From a virus, in the IMG/VR virus record IMGVR_UViG_3300021371_000095, positions 1 to 25,283 of that record: a stretch of DNA of 25,283 bases; one strand, written 5' to 3'. A program made the translations under genes and the position numbers. The notes under the pieces were generated by a model, which was not told the origin of the DNA, did not search any database, and saw only the letters and a program-made list of their open reading frames with translations. This document shows positions 113 through 5,366 of this stretch, in pieces (the first letter of the stretch is position 1; each line of letters opens with the position of its first letter).

Positions 113-1000
113 ATGATAACAGGTAGATTTGGTACATGTAATTTATGCCTAGGTGGTAACCAGTCTGGAAATAATCTATGGACTTCTTGTGCGTATAATG
201 GTTTTTTTACAAGAACCTTTATGAATTGTAGTAATTTATGTCTTTTTTATTATAATTGTAATTATGAATTAAGAGACGCAATTAATCCATCTTCCTACCC
301 CAAGTATAATACTGGCCACGCTTCACTCTCTAATTTCTCATTTAGTGAAGTTTATAATGATGTCAGCCCTTTCAATTGGAATTTTAGAGCAACGACTGGA
401 ATTTCTGTTTTAACAATGACCTCCCCTTTTTCTATAACTAGAACTGGGAGTGGGACTCAGGTAATTTATGGATGTGAAGCTGTACAATTTTCCGGCATAA
501 GCTTCACTAATACTGTTAGTGCAACCGCTGCATCTGGTTATGTTTTTGCTTCTTGGAGAGTTAATAGTAGTAGTGGTACTGTTGCCTCAACTAATGCTTC
601 CTTTAGCCCAAATTATACTACTAGTTATGGATCTGATCACTATTTAAATATCTGGCAATTTTATGCTACAGCAACACTTGCAGCTTCATCACCTTCAGTA
701 AGTACAACTAGTACAGCTTATATACCTAAAGGTAGTCGACTTTTTGGTTATGGTGATGTTACCTCTGATGGTGGTGCAACTGTTACATCACGAGGATTTG
801 TTGTTGGTAGTAGTACCAACATCTCCCCAACCCTTACAAATTACCAATATATAATTGATGGTGGTTCAGGTACAGGTACATACAACAACTATACAACTGT
901 CTTGGTGCCTATAGGTGGAACAACATTTTATGTGAGAGCATATGCAACAAACTCATCAGGTACTGGGTATGGTCTTTCAATTAGTCAGTATGCTTCTTAA
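113..1000 (+). CDS. Surface or tail-fibre-like protein with Bacteroidota Fn3-like repeat
   Basis: A 295-residue protein rich in Ser, Thr, Gly, Asn and Tyr. The first 50 residues hold several cysteines (CNLCLGG, CAYNG, NCSNLC, YYNCNY). Residues about 120-190 look like a Listeria-Bacteroides type repeat (ATAASGYVFASWRVN). Residues about 210-293 form an Fn3-like module with the signature GDVTSDGGATVTSRGFV followed by YVRAYATNSSGTGYG. This signature is very common in secreted and surface proteins of Bacteroidota. I infer a virion appendage that touches the host surface, perhaps assembled from host-derived adhesin modules. No signal peptide is visible, which fits a virion protein better than an exported one. 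The start two bases after the previous stop suggests coupling. Cargo or adhesin roles cannot be separated from sequence alone. Confidence 0.7.
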   Translation: MITGRFGTCNLCLGGNQSGNNLWTSCAYNGFFTRTFMNCSNLCLFYYNCNYELRDAINPSSYPKYNTGHASLSNFSFSEVYNDVSPFNWNFRATTGISVLTMTSPFSITRTGSGTQVIYGCEAVQFSGISFTNTVSATAASGYVFASWRVNSSSGTVASTNASFSPNYTTSYGSDHYLNIWQFYATATLAASSPSVSTTSTAYIPKGSRLFGYGDVTSDGGATVTSRGFVVGSSTNISPTLTNYQYIIDGGSGTGTYNNYTTVLVPIGGTTFYVRAYATNSSGTGYGLSISQYAS

Positions 1001-1096: not shown

Positions 1097-1966
1097 ATGA
1101 AAGCAAAAATATTCTGGGCTACAGGTGGGATGGGCAAAGTTATAGCATCAACTGCTATAATTGAGTTATTAAAAAAGGAGAATCCTAATGATAAGTTAAT
1201 AGTAATAACACCACACCCCTTAGTATTTAAAAATAACCCTTATATAGACGAAATATTTAATATAAAGGATGTTAACAAAGCTTACCAAAAATATTTTAAT
1301 AAGGATTCCCAAATATTAGTCCGTGAACCTTATAATGAACCTTCATTTATATCAGGTGAGGAAAATTTATTAAAAACTTGGAGTAAAATGTATGGTTTAG
1401 ACTTAAACAATACATCCCCCCAATTATTTTTTGAAGTAGGTGAATTAGATAAATACGAAAAATTATTTAAAAGTGATAAACCCATATTTGTAATCCATCC
1501 TTTTGGTGGAGGTACAAAAGAATATAATTGGGTAAGAGATATCCACCCTAATTCTGCCCAAAACCTAGTAGATTTTATTTCTAAATCCCACACTGTATAT
1601 CAAATAAAAAGTAGAGAACAAAGGTTATTAAAAGGAGCAATTCCTGCAGAACAAAATGTAAGAAAAATAGCAGCACTATTAAAAATGGCTGATAAAAGGT
1701 TATTAATAGACTCATTTTCACAACATTTATCCGCTTCATTAAGGTTAAAATCTAGTGTATGTTGGTACATGACCCAACCTTTATCTTATGGTTATCCTAT
1801 AAATAATAATATAGTAATAAATCATTCTCAAACTAGAAAATATAAACCTTTTACATTTACAGTACCACAAGGTGTAAATCTATCAGAACCATTAGAACTA
1901 TGTCCTTATGATTCACCCCAAAATTTACATTCATTAGATAAAATTATAAAAGAATTAAACAGGTGA
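1097..1966 (+). CDS. GT9-like (heptosyltransferase-type) glycosyltransferase
   Basis: A 289-residue protein resembling the ADP-heptose:LPS heptosyltransferase family (GT9, GT-B fold). The N-terminus has the family's typical glycine turn, ATGGMGKVIASTAIIE (residues 8-23), followed by a strand of the form KLIVITPHP. The C-terminal half opens with FVIHPFGGG (residues about 131-139), similar to the sugar-nucleotide binding half, and later has the DSFSQHLSASL stretch where GT9 enzymes carry a D..S.H element. The family transfers heptose or related sugars to lipid or glycan acceptors. Here it overlaps the next gene by 4 bases (GTGA) and heads a three-gene cassette with a propeller/methyltransferase fusion and a TPR protein. 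I infer glycosylation of virion or host glycan; the sugar and acceptor are unknown. The length is slightly shorter than typical bacterial members. Confidence 0.7.
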   Translation: MKAKIFWATGGMGKVIASTAIIELLKKENPNDKLIVITPHPLVFKNNPYIDEIFNIKDVNKAYQKYFNKDSQILVREPYNEPSFISGEENLLKTWSKMYGLDLNNTSPQLFFEVGELDKYEKLFKSDKPIFVIHPFGGGTKEYNWVRDIHPNSAQNLVDFISKSHTVYQIKSREQRLLKGAIPAEQNVRKIAALLKMADKRLLIDSFSQHLSASLRLKSSVCWYMTQPLSYGYPINNNIVINHSQTRKYKPFTFTVPQGVNLSEPLELCPYDSPQNLHSLDKIIKELNR

Positions 1967-3711
1967 TAGATAACTTAGCAAAATTAGCCTTAAACAATGG
2001 AGGATCAATAACCCCACTTATAATCCCAGGAGAATTAATTGATGGTACAGGTTTATGTAATGTATCCCTCTTTCAAGAAAAAAATGGAGATATCATTGCT
2101 AATATTAGACACGTTCATTATACTTTATATCATAGTGAATTTGACCAAAAATTTAATTGTAAGTGGGGGTGTTTATCATATTTAAACCCTGAAGATGATA
2201 TCCATCTAATTACAGGAAATTATTTATGTAGATTAAATCCTGATACTTTAGAAGTAGATACTTATCAAAAAATAGATACTTTAAAAAACGATATAACACC
2301 TATTTGGGATTTTCATGGTTTAGAAGATGTAAGAGTTTTTAGATGGGAAGATAAATTATATGTCTGTGGTGTAAGAAGGGATGTAAAACCCAATGGGGAA
2401 GGAAGAATGGAACTTTGTGAGGTTGAATGGGGTAAAAATATTTGTATAGAACAAACCCGTGATAGAATCGAAGTAGAACCTCATACTTACTTAGAAAAAA
2501 ATTGGATGCCTATATTTGATATGCCTTACCATTTTGTAAAGTGGGCTAACCCATTAGAAATTGTAAAAGTAAATCCAAAAGATAAATCTACAGAAACTGT
2601 ACAAAAAGGAATACTTAATATAATATCTAGTGAAACAGTTATATCAAAAGATGAAAAACTAAAATTACCATTAGGGTTAAGGGGAAGTTCACCTGTAATA
2701 TTATTTGGAGATGAAGGAGATAGAATGTGTATAACACATGAAACTGATTTCTTCCATCACCCAGGTATGAAAAAGGACGCACATTATTATCATAGATTTT
2801 TAATTTGGGATAAAGATTGGAATGTTAAAAGTTTATCTAAACCCTTTAAATTTATGGGGGCTATGATTGAATTTTGTTGTGGTTTATTAGTTAAAGATAA
2901 TAATTTAATTATGAGTTATGGCTACCAAGATAATGCAGCTTATGCTTTAAAAATGCCTATTGAAACTTTAAATGATTTAGAATGGGAAGATTTTTCTTCC
3001 AAATTAATTTTACCTAAAACTCAACCTACTAAATTAGTTACATGGCATGAACCTTTAACATATCTTACACTTGTGGATAAGTTAAAATCTCCTTTTATAG
3101 GTTTAGAAAATATTATAAAAAATTATTCTCAATGTTATCAAGATATGTTTGTTTTATCTTGTTTAAATGGTAAAAAAAACGGAACCTATTTAGAAATAGG
3201 AGCAGGAGACCCATTTTATGGTAACAACACAGCTTTACTTTCAGAATTGGGTTGGAAAGGGGTTTCATTGGATGTACTTCCGGAAGCACAACAAAAATGG
3301 GAAGAATTAAGACCAAATGATACTTTTTTACTTCAAAATGCTCTAACTACTGATTATATACAATTATGCCAAACTAATGGTTTACCACGTTATATAGATT
3401 ATTTACAGTTAGACATCGACCCCGCTTATAATACTTTACAAGCATTAAAAAATATACCGCTTGACGTATTAGAATTTGGGGTAATAACCTACGAACATGA
3501 TTTTTATATTGATATGGATGAAACCTGTCGTAAAGAATCAAGAAAAATATTACAAGATGCAGGATATGTTTTAATAGCAGCTAATATTTCACCTGATAAA
3601 AATAGCCCTTATGAGGATTGGTATATTAATCCTAAATATGTTAAGGAATATAAAAGAAAAGAAATAGATAAAAAAATACTATTCGCAAAAGATTATATGA
3701 TAGATGGATAA
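1963..3711 (+). CDS. Beta-propeller glycosidase-like domain fused to FkbM-type methyltransferase
   Basis: A 582-residue protein that starts with GTG inside the stop of the previous gene. Residues about 1-380 look like a five-bladed propeller of the GH43/GH130-like type: HGLEDVRVFRW (residues 118-128) and RGSSPVILFGDE are typical of blades that carry acidic catalytic or binding residues. Residues about 385-575 form a second domain similar to FkbM-family SAM-dependent methyltransferases. It has GTYLEIGAGDP (residues 407-417) as the SAM-binding loop, GVSLDVLPE as the acidic strand, and YLQLDIDPAYNTLQALKNIP, where FkbM proteins have a conserved LDxD-type motif. Known FkbM enzymes O-methylate sugars and other small molecules. 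The fusion suggests recognition or trimming of a glycan together with capping by methylation. This is inference; I do not know a characterised protein with this layout. Confidence 0.65.
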   Translation: MIDNLAKLALNNGGSITPLIIPGELIDGTGLCNVSLFQEKNGDIIANIRHVHYTLYHSEFDQKFNCKWGCLSYLNPEDDIHLITGNYLCRLNPDTLEVDTYQKIDTLKNDITPIWDFHGLEDVRVFRWEDKLYVCGVRRDVKPNGEGRMELCEVEWGKNICIEQTRDRIEVEPHTYLEKNWMPIFDMPYHFVKWANPLEIVKVNPKDKSTETVQKGILNIISSETVISKDEKLKLPLGLRGSSPVILFGDEGDRMCITHETDFFHHPGMKKDAHYYHRFLIWDKDWNVKSLSKPFKFMGAMIEFCCGLLVKDNNLIMSYGYQDNAAYALKMPIETLNDLEWEDFSSKLILPKTQPTKLVTWHEPLTYLTLVDKLKSPFIGLENIIKNYSQCYQDMFVLSCLNGKKNGTYLEIGAGDPFYGNNTALLSELGWKGVSLDVLPEAQQKWEELRPNDTFLLQNALTTDYIQLCQTNGLPRYIDYLQLDIDPAYNTLQALKNIPLDVLEFGVITYEHDFYIDMDETCRKESRKILQDAGYVLIAANISPDKNSPYEDWYINPKYVKEYKRKEIDKKILFAKDYMIDG

Positions 3712-4345
3712 GTTAAAAAAATATTTAAATGCTTATGTAAATGATCCTTTAGATCCTTATATTAATGCCCAATTAGGGGAAGAATATGAATTAATAGGTC
3801 AGGGAGCAGCGGCCCATTCATACTTTTTAAGAGCAGCTGAACTATTACATGATAAGGATCCGGAAATGACTTATTGTTGTTTATTGAAAACTTGGAAACA
3901 ATTACATAATACAACTAGAAGACTTGAATGGGAAAAGGGACAATTACAAACAGCTGTGGCTTATTTCCCACAACGCCCAGAAGCTTACTTACATTTAAGT
4001 TTACACTATAGTAAAAAAGAAGAATGGAAAGATTCTTATATGTATGCTTGTTTAGGACTTTTACACCAAAATAAAACACCTTTACCCTATGATATAGGAT
4101 ATCCCGGGGATTATATGTTAATTTTTCAAAAGGCATTTACTAGTTGGTATATAGGCCAAAGACAAGAATCTAAGGAATTATGGACACAATTAGGAAATAT
4201 GAAAGGTATTTTACCTGAACATATGGAAATAATTCAATACAATATTAAGACATTAGGCGATAATTCACCTACATTAAATAAAATTAATTTTAAGATTATT
4301 TCAGGCAAAAATGTAATACTTGAAAATTATTTAACCAGTACATAA
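3704..4345 (+). CDS. TPR-like helical repeat protein of the glycan cassette
   Basis: A 213-residue protein made of paired helices with a tetratricopeptide rhythm: PYINAQLGEEYELIGQGAAA, then PEAYLHLSLHYSKKEEW, and then a third pair near residues 140-170. The small-large residue spacing of TPR units (A/G, L, Y, A) is visible in the first two units. It overlaps the previous gene by 8 bases, so it is co-translated. TPR proteins bind partner proteins, and in glycan clusters they often sit beside or within glycosyltransferases. A scaffold for the two enzymes upstream is plausible but not shown. The last 30 residues (NKINFKIISGKNVILENYL) do not look helical and may be a small beta element. Confidence 0.55.
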   Translation: MDKLKKYLNAYVNDPLDPYINAQLGEEYELIGQGAAAHSYFLRAAELLHDKDPEMTYCCLLKTWKQLHNTTRRLEWEKGQLQTAVAYFPQRPEAYLHLSLHYSKKEEWKDSYMYACLGLLHQNKTPLPYDIGYPGDYMLIFQKAFTSWYIGQRQESKELWTQLGNMKGILPEHMEIIQYNIKTLGDNSPTLNKINFKIISGKNVILENYLTST

Positions 4346-4376: not shown

Positions 4377-4859
4377 ATGAGTTGGACTTATAGAACAACA
4401 CCTATTGAAGATATTACCCAGTTCCCAAACAACACTTTCGGCTTTGTCTACATGACAACCCACAAACCAACGGGGAAATCTTACATTGGAAAAAAAGTAT
4501 TATTCCATAATAAAAAACAAAAGTTAGGTAAAAAAGACCTAGAAAAACTTCAAGGTGTAGTTGGGAGACGACCTTCATATAAATTAATAGTTAAAGAATC
4601 TGATTGGAAAACATATTACGGTTCTCAAACAGATATTAAAAAGCTATTACTTGAGGGAAAAAAGGATGAATTTGAACGAATAATTTTAAAATGTGTAGAA
4701 ACTAAAAAACAACTTACATATTTTGAAATTAAATATCAAATGCTCTATGAAGTATTAGAAAAACCAGATGACTTTTTTAACGATAATATTCTGGGTAAAT
4801 TTTTCACTAAAGACTTATCAAGTTTAGAATTTGAAAGTCTCGTGTCAGATCAAATCTAA
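4377..4859 (+). CDS. GIY-YIG-like nuclease-domain protein
   Basis: A 160-residue protein. Residues about 21-41 (GFVYMTTH...GKSYIGKK) fit the GIY-YIG core, with FVY in place of GIY and YIG kept. The later SDWKTYYGSQTDIKKL stretch matches the pattern ESDWK.YYGS seen in a group of phage proteins with this domain. GIY-YIG domains cut DNA and occur in free-standing homing endonucleases and repair enzymes. No separate DNA-binding domain is evident beyond the C-terminal helices, so it may be a stand-alone endonuclease. It sits at the border between the glycan cassette and the replication genes, a common position for phage homing enzymes. The exact target cannot be told. Confidence 0.65.
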   Translation: MSWTYRTTPIEDITQFPNNTFGFVYMTTHKPTGKSYIGKKVLFHNKKQKLGKKDLEKLQGVVGRRPSYKLIVKESDWKTYYGSQTDIKKLLLEGKKDEFERIILKCVETKKQLTYFEIKYQMLYEVLEKPDDFFNDNILGKFFTKDLSSLEFESLVSDQI

Positions 4860-4877: not shown

Positions 4878-5366
4878 ATGGGAGAAAAGTTATATAAAAT
4901 ATTTAAATTATTAGAAGAAAAATACCCTTGGGTTACACCCTTTTTATTATTTTATTATAACCATATACCCTTACATATTAATAACCCACAACTAGGAAAC
5001 TTTGAAATTTTTAAAAATGCTATATTATTTTTAAGGAATATTGATAAATTTAAAATAATTCCTCCTAAAGAATATACTACAGAATTTATATTAAACAACA
5101 TACATTTAGAAGAATATAATATTCCTAATCTTTCAAATTTAACTAAAAAAGATGTTCAAAATTTTGAACCTATACAATTTATAGTATGGAAAGATAAAGT
5201 AATGGGGTTAACGGATGGAGCGCATAGAGTGCAAATAGCACATGCTTTAAATGTTAAAATTAAAGCAGTACAATTTAAATCCCACAGTTATAATTCTCAC
5301 CCTAATAATAAAGAAATTATTAGGTTAGCAAACGAAATTTATACCGAAGTTAATTCGAATAAATAA
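4878..5366 (+). CDS. ParB/sulfiredoxin-fold protein
   Basis: A 162-residue protein. The C-terminal half contains PIQFIVWKDKVMGLTDGAHR followed by VQIAHALNVKIKAVQF (residues about 96-131). This matches the ParB N-terminal nuclease-like core, in which DGxHR marks the nucleotide- or phosphate-binding loop and a helix of the form AxxLGxxxIxA follows. ParB-like domains in phages act in DNA binding, CTP hydrolysis, nicking or phosphotransfer, so the exact activity is open. The N-terminal 80 residues (YPWVTPFLLFYYN) are hydrophobic and aromatic without a clear signal peptide. The stop is one base before the primase ATG, so it is probably translated with it. Confidence 0.55.
   Translation: MGEKLYKIFKLLEEKYPWVTPFLLFYYNHIPLHINNPQLGNFEIFKNAILFLRNIDKFKIIPPKEYTTEFILNNIHLEEYNIPNLSNLTKKDVQNFEPIQFIVWKDKVMGLTDGAHRVQIAHALNVKIKAVQFKSHSYNSHPNNKEIIRLANEIYTEVNSNK

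Follow-up and report, generated by a model that had tools for sequence, protein, structure and literature searches.

A virus-borne propeller and TPR module beside phage tail fibre genes, with a predicted role in glycosylation and methylation of collagen-like fibres

The window analysed here, an entire IMG/VR record of 25,283 bases (IMGVR_UViG_3300021371_000095), comes from a marine T4-like phage; its terminase shares ~70% identity with the terminase of Flavobacterium phage immuto. It carries a cassette of three overlapping genes that encode a GT9-like protein (P0001), a propeller joined in one protein to an FkbM-like methyltransferase domain (P0002), and a tetratricopeptide repeat (TPR) protein (P0003). 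Our analysis showed that only the propeller and the TPR protein form a fixed pair, and that the fusion is one of several forms taken by a module that is widespread, borne by viruses, and equipped with movable methyltransferase, radical S-adenosylmethionine (SAM), glycosyltransferase or oxygenase domains. We predict that the cassette glycosylates the phage's own collagen-like tail fibre and caps it by O-methylation, and we put the probability of this reading at roughly 55%. An earlier note, made from the sequence alone, had described the three genes as co-translated through overlaps, and the open reading frames (ORFs) listed here were confirmed, with successive overlaps of 4 nt and 8 nt:

1097..1966, plus strand: P0001, a GT9-fold glycosyltransferase-like protein of 289 amino acids (aa), separable from the other two genes (fold match)
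1963..3711, plus strand: P0002, predicted fusion of a propeller and an FkbM-like methyltransferase domain, 582 aa, GTG start (predicted structure, fold matches)
1963..3000, plus strand: propeller domain of P0002 (N-terminal domain, residues 1-346), GH130/GT108 fold (fold and profile alignment)
3055..3711, plus strand: FkbM-like SAM methyltransferase domain of P0002 (C-terminal domain, CTD, residues 365-582; fold match)
3704..4345, plus strand: P0003, TPR protein of 213 aa, the fixed partner of the propeller gene, with the 8-nt overlap (family profile)

The structure of P0002 was modelled from 36 aligned sequences (pLDDT 80.5, pTM 0.56), and residues 1-346 of the model matched GH130 protein 4kmi best (Z 22.3, rmsd 3.3, 280 aligned), followed by GT108 (Z 18.4) and GH43 (Z ≤17.7). 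This points to a five-bladed propeller of the GH130/GT108 subtype; of the earlier label “GH43/GH130-like”, the GH130 part stands while GH43 ranks lower. We mapped individual residues through a profile alignment of the propeller family with cellular GH130 proteins, taking as reference BT3780, whose substrate and catalytic residue roles are given in the accessible part of PMC4599007. Residues N33, R49, E121, D122, Y275, F304, and D323 of P0002 align with N74, R89, E141, D142, Y302, F344, and D363 of BT3780, and all seven are invariant in 32/32 propeller sequences. A structure prediction of this region had been proposed as a way to look for a catalytic pocket, and the predicted GH130/GT108 propeller appears by alignment to keep the mannose site (-1 subsite) and the catalytic residues, including the GxED motif. 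This argues for a working enzyme, with phosphorylase and transferase not separable from the residues.

A propeller that degrades or merely binds beta-mannosides (as a phosphorylase, hydrolase, or lectin), for example in host recognition or sugar salvage, is in our view very unlikely. Its nearest solved folds are mannoside phosphorylases, and the window propeller alone scores below the Pfam cut-off (PF04041, 13 bits against a gathering score of 26), with 7/18 propeller members matching this family at E ≤0.1 (best 1.3e-4). However, R240 occupies the position of Glu268 in the hydrolase BT3780, which lowers the case for a hydrolase; the invariant -1 site speaks against a dead lectin, and fusions with methyltransferases and glycosyltransferases fit synthesis. 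Five blades, the GxED motif, and the -1 residues are also common to the GT108 mannosyltransferase-phosphorylases of Leishmania, going by the accessible parts of PMC4599007 and PMC8950772. The phage propeller differs from GH130/GT108 proteins in being only 9-15% identical in structural alignment, in its fusion to or pairing with TPR and methyltransferase partners, and in being essentially virus-borne. An NCBIfam search of the three window proteins gave 0 matches.

The earlier call of P0003 as a TPR protein was borne out by its family profile, which matches consensus TPR proteins (best E 1.3e-12), and TPR_17 was matched by 11/20 family members; P0003 alone had no match in Pfam at E 0.01. When the search was seeded with the TPR protein, the propeller was adjacent in 75/80 loci, many of them on the same contigs as those in the propeller-seeded scans. 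Four of the remaining five loci end upstream before the propeller, and the fifth (L250) has a CTD before the TPR. Clustering at 95% reduced the 108 propeller loci to 88, among which a propeller gene next to a TPR-CTD gene is found in 30, a single propeller-TPR-CTD protein in 19, and a propeller gene next to a TPR gene in 10. Eight loci are of the window's type and 21 take other forms, several with extra domains; those found in relatives include true FkbM methyltransferases, radical SAM with SPASM, GT25, WavE, and DUF6445. The domain order of P0002 had been thought unique, with a search of other genomes suggested as a check. This search recovered 18 ORFs with the window-type fusion, representing 13 distinct contigs (deduplicated by contig name), namely the window and 12 others, and uniqueness is therefore rejected.

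Some of these architectures deserve mention in their own right. At L021, L027, L028, L061, L088, L122, L127, and L128, a radical SAM/SPASM-like domain is fused to the propeller or the TPR protein, and in some cases a canonical FkbM domain is present as well. In S-SCSM2R (L060:8971-10836), a protein annotated as CcmH/NrfG is a fusion of TPR, methyltransferase, and DUF6445, and the neighbouring “MGP protein” is a propeller.

The viral scans returned at least 587 (propeller) and at least 572 relatives, while 84,980 cellular genomes yielded 6 loci, all in metagenome-bin contigs. These six cassette contigs (L137-L142) come from five bacterial or archaeal bins and could represent stray pieces of phage DNA. 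P0002 is matched by five of 50,697 phage records, and two of these, both cyanophages, have the propeller and the TPR protein. DSL-LC02 and S-SCSM2R are cultured cyanophages with the cassette, and collagen-like fibres are in view in DSL-LC02. The same propeller fold was also seen with Foldseek (BFVD) in proteins of Pithovirus, Solivirus, Satyrvirus, Indivirus, and Ectocarpus virus, several of them long, and for some giant-virus propeller proteins the annotation is fucosyltransferase or another glycan enzyme.

The CTD of P0002 had been read as an FkbM-type methyltransferase. It takes a Rossmann SAM-methyltransferase fold (Foldseek, best E 9e-7) and carries FkbM-like motifs, but it stays below the Pfam cut-off for FkbM: P0002 had no match to the Pfam/NCBIfam FkbM family (PF05050), 4/27 CTD members matched PF05050 (best E 0.031), and the CTD profile matched the true FkbM domain profile weakly (probability 10.7%). 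In relatives, the CTD sits on the TPR gene, within a three-domain fusion, or alone, or it is missing. CTDs from window-type fusions and TPR-borne CTDs form one supported group in the tree (15 rows, 8 and 7, respectively; SH-aLRT 96), from which it is most likely that the CTD moved between the neighbouring propeller and TPR genes. At L010, the propeller is 88% identical and the CTD is missing, with the 8-nt overlap still present. At a further set of 27 loci (L033-L059), the CTD was observed as a lone gene of ~233-238 aa without collagen or 2-oxoglutarate (2OG) genes nearby.

P0001 had been called a GT9-like transferase, in agreement with its AlphaFold model (pLDDT 87.8). The model matched GT9 protein 3tov (Z 23.1, rmsd 2.9, 261 aligned), WaaF (Z 20.7), WaaC (Z 19.9), and TibC (Z 19.7), which indicates a predicted GT-B fold of the GT9 type; below the GT9 entries came an NDH-PSI subunit group (Z 17.6-17.9) and then the next GT-B group (Z 11.2). 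In WaaC, a catalytic Asp follows the N-terminal glycine motif. The N-terminal motif of the P0001 family reads GGxGK, with the Lys invariant in 18/18 members. GT9 was found without the propeller and TPR genes, and these were found without GT9. Because 5/18 cassette-less loci of the lineage defined by the downstream segE gene carry GT9, it does not track fibre type. The “three-gene glycan cassette” of the earlier note thus holds as three overlapping genes, and its reading as one operon unit is rejected, since GT9 comes and goes independently of the other two. P0001 shares its fold with TibC-type protein heptosyltransferases and other GT9 proteins, but it differs from them in the invariant GGxGK near its N-terminus, in its partner genes, and in having no tie to fibre type.

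As immuto has a SegE-like gene directly after its last tail spike gene, the cassette in the window sits between fibre genes and segE, a site that is highly variable according to synteny in the primase lineage. The 73 ORFs upstream of the cassette in its relatives included matches to Collagen (14), 2OG_Oxy_3 (10), and Peptidase_S74 (7). We examined 184 loci of the segE lineage (108 without near-copies), 26 of which are non-redundant and have at least 8 Gly-X-Y triplets in view, and we distinguished collagen-type repeats, with Y mostly Thr, Gln, Lys, or Pro, from Ser-type repeats, with Y mostly Ser (Gly-X-Ser). Fibre repeat type covaried with the cassette: collagen-type repeats occurred in 8/8 cassette loci and in 0/18 cassette-less loci, all 18 of which were Ser-type (Fisher 6.4e-7), and with previously inspected loci removed the counts were 4/4 and 0/13 (p 4e-4). 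On the segE tree, cassette presence switches at least 5 times, with supported branches requiring two of these switches. Every independent pair shows fibre type changing in the same direction, though the pairs are few. Across all lineages, 37/38 cassette loci with repeats were collagen-type and none was Ser-type, the exception being L124. In L002, the nearest relative of the window, a collagen-like ORF with 57 triplets precedes a fusion of the window's type by 0.5 kb, and because the window's record begins just upstream of the cassette, we infer the collagen fibre of the window phage from L002.

A PKHD-type 2OG oxygenase is often encoded directly upstream of the cassette, and its presence goes with the proline content of the fibre. 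We kept 44 of 61 loci for this comparison and found that proline made up at least 20% of the repeats, the threshold used, in 7/8 loci with the oxygenase and in 1/36 without it (Fisher 1.6e-6). Leaving out already-seen rows on both sides gave 4/5 and 1/29, and grouping the eight oxygenase loci by our own judgement into four lineages gave 3/4 and 1/36; on the tree, there are only 2 supported independent pairs and none in the opposite direction. Lysine was rejected as the hydroxylated residue, as oxygenase loci were no different in this respect (p 0.95). The earlier note had suggested decoration of the nearby fibre or remodelling of the host surface; repeat type and fibre proline support the former, and the latter remains a rival.

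Several points weigh against fibre modification. Activity is known for none of the module's members, and the function of the cassette is predicted. Both covariation tests are post hoc, having been set up after the composition had been seen, and there are only 2 supported phylogenetically independent pairs (sign test p 0.5 for each trait). Among segE-lineage loci that have both the cassette and 3 kb or more of upstream sequence, 19/27 have no collagen-type repeat in view, and the window, whose record starts just upstream of the cassette, shows no collagen repeats either. L122 and L337 are exceptions to the proline rule. If any Gly-X-Y run is taken as the trait, it is present in 34/49 cassette and 11/21 cassette-less loci (p 0.19); this broader association is unsupported, an earlier count having given 2/5 and 11/21. 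The propeller occurred in 2/50 Gly-X-(Gln/Lys) collagen records and 0/50 Gly-Thr-Ser (GTS) records, which is no significant difference, and the empty answer for the GTS set shows nothing by itself. These records were the first 50/73 collagen-pattern and the first 50/65 GTS loci, after 7/80 and 14/79 pattern loci, respectively, had been dropped for composition. The idea that collagen implies the cassette is rejected, since 48/50 of the collagen records are without the propeller.

Neighbouring genes can also be swapped as one block without a functional tie. Fibre genes and cassette would then be a single recombining hot-spot block, their covariation would be hitch-hiking, and the cassette would have a different role, which we regard as improbable. 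The variability of the fibre-segE site is in line with this, as is a number of independent contrasts too small for significance, but the pairing recurs across lineages and architectures (37/38), and GT9, which is equally close, does not follow fibre type.

We infer the fibre as substrate, the donor sugar and its linkage, the order of steps, the TPR ligand, and the methyl acceptor. Modification of the fibre would occur inside the infected cell, ahead of assembly. The propeller would transfer a mannose-type sugar in beta linkage, either to the fibre or to a sugar that the fibre already carries, its TPR partner would keep the enzymes or the extended repeat chain in place, and the FkbM-like domain would cap the glycan by O-methylation. 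In some relatives, the 2OG oxygenase may first hydroxylate fibre proline, and swapped-in radical SAM, GT25, and WavE-like glycosyltransferase domains may perform further steps. We suggest more tentatively, at somewhat less than even odds, that these parts make up a phage collagen-maturation pathway, in which the propeller serves as fibre glycosyltransferase and the TPR protein as scaffold, capping enzymes are interchangeable, and proline-rich fibres have a prolyl hydroxylase of their own, the set being tuned to the amino acids of the fibre.

Fibre modification has to be weighed against remodelling of the host surface, in which sugars would be added or methylated on lipopolysaccharide (LPS) or another envelope glycan during infection, excluding other phages or altering adsorption. 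Glycosyltransferases in the tail-fibre region of pelagimyophages are read this way in the accessible part of PMC7029224. LPS heptosyltransferases have the GT9 fold, and some of the proteins fused to the module or encoded beside it are similar to products of LPS genes (WavE, GT25, and HldE-like families). Nevertheless, we consider host remodelling rather unlikely, as it explains neither the link to repeat type nor why an oxygenase should go with fibre proline, and no membrane segment is predicted (top 19-residue mean hydropathy 1.23). Radical SAM/SPASM and prolyl-hydroxylase-like families suit peptide substrates, and the partners of this kind fit such a substrate.

Modification of the phage's own fibre would have parallels in other viruses. 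According to the available part of PMC9614988, PBCV-1 A064R consists of transferase domains and, at the C-terminus, a SAM methyltransferase by which the virion glycan is capped, and mimivirus L230 (GT25 and lysyl hydroxylase) provides virus-encoded collagen hydroxylation and glycosylation. The chlorovirus protein A064R is likewise a virus-encoded transferase-methyltransferase fusion, but it has other transferase folds and concerns an N-glycan on the capsid protein of an alga virus. L230 has a collagen-like protein as substrate, as proposed here, but acts on lysine, whereas proline follows the oxygenase in the phage loci. In the pelagimyophage host recognition cluster, too, a single hypervariable region contains tail fibres, glycosyltransferases, and radical-SAM cassettes; the accessible part of PMC7029224 names no GH130-like/TPR module and interprets the genes as serving to modify the O-chain. 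BclA, a collagen-like protein of spores, is glycosylated, and one bacterial prolyl hydroxylase is known, as stated in the available part of PMC8968730; a paper on phage-borne collagens describes prolyl hydroxylases as lacking in bacteria and viruses (PMC3368898, available part). For phages, the latter statement would be contradicted by a 2OG oxygenase whose presence goes with fibre proline. Our analysis suggests that in some phages the fibres undergo a chemical finishing comparable to that of collagen in animals. If true, this would give phages chemical means to stabilise or disguise fibres, account for the “beta-mannosyltransferase”, FkbM, and radical-SAM annotations that are scattered in the vicinity of tail genes, and offer small soluble enzymes for making modified collagens. 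A literature search for a prior account of the propeller-TPR module found no description, with most subscription papers outside the search.

Two further genes flank the cassette in the window:

113..1000, plus strand: ORF that looks fibre-like by eye, Ser/Thr/Gly-rich and without a family match or Gly-X-Y repeats (context)
4377..4859, plus strand: SegE-like GIY-YIG gene, the downstream edge of the variable site (PF19835, E 1.1e-26; synteny)

For P0004, no relatives were found among the phage records. Between segE and the primase, an ORF of 162 aa (4878-5366) has a relative only at L231 among the primase-lineage loci listed. The SegE-like gene itself (4377-4859) is named “NAD synthetase” by PHROGs and in the immuto record, a name that is probably mistaken.
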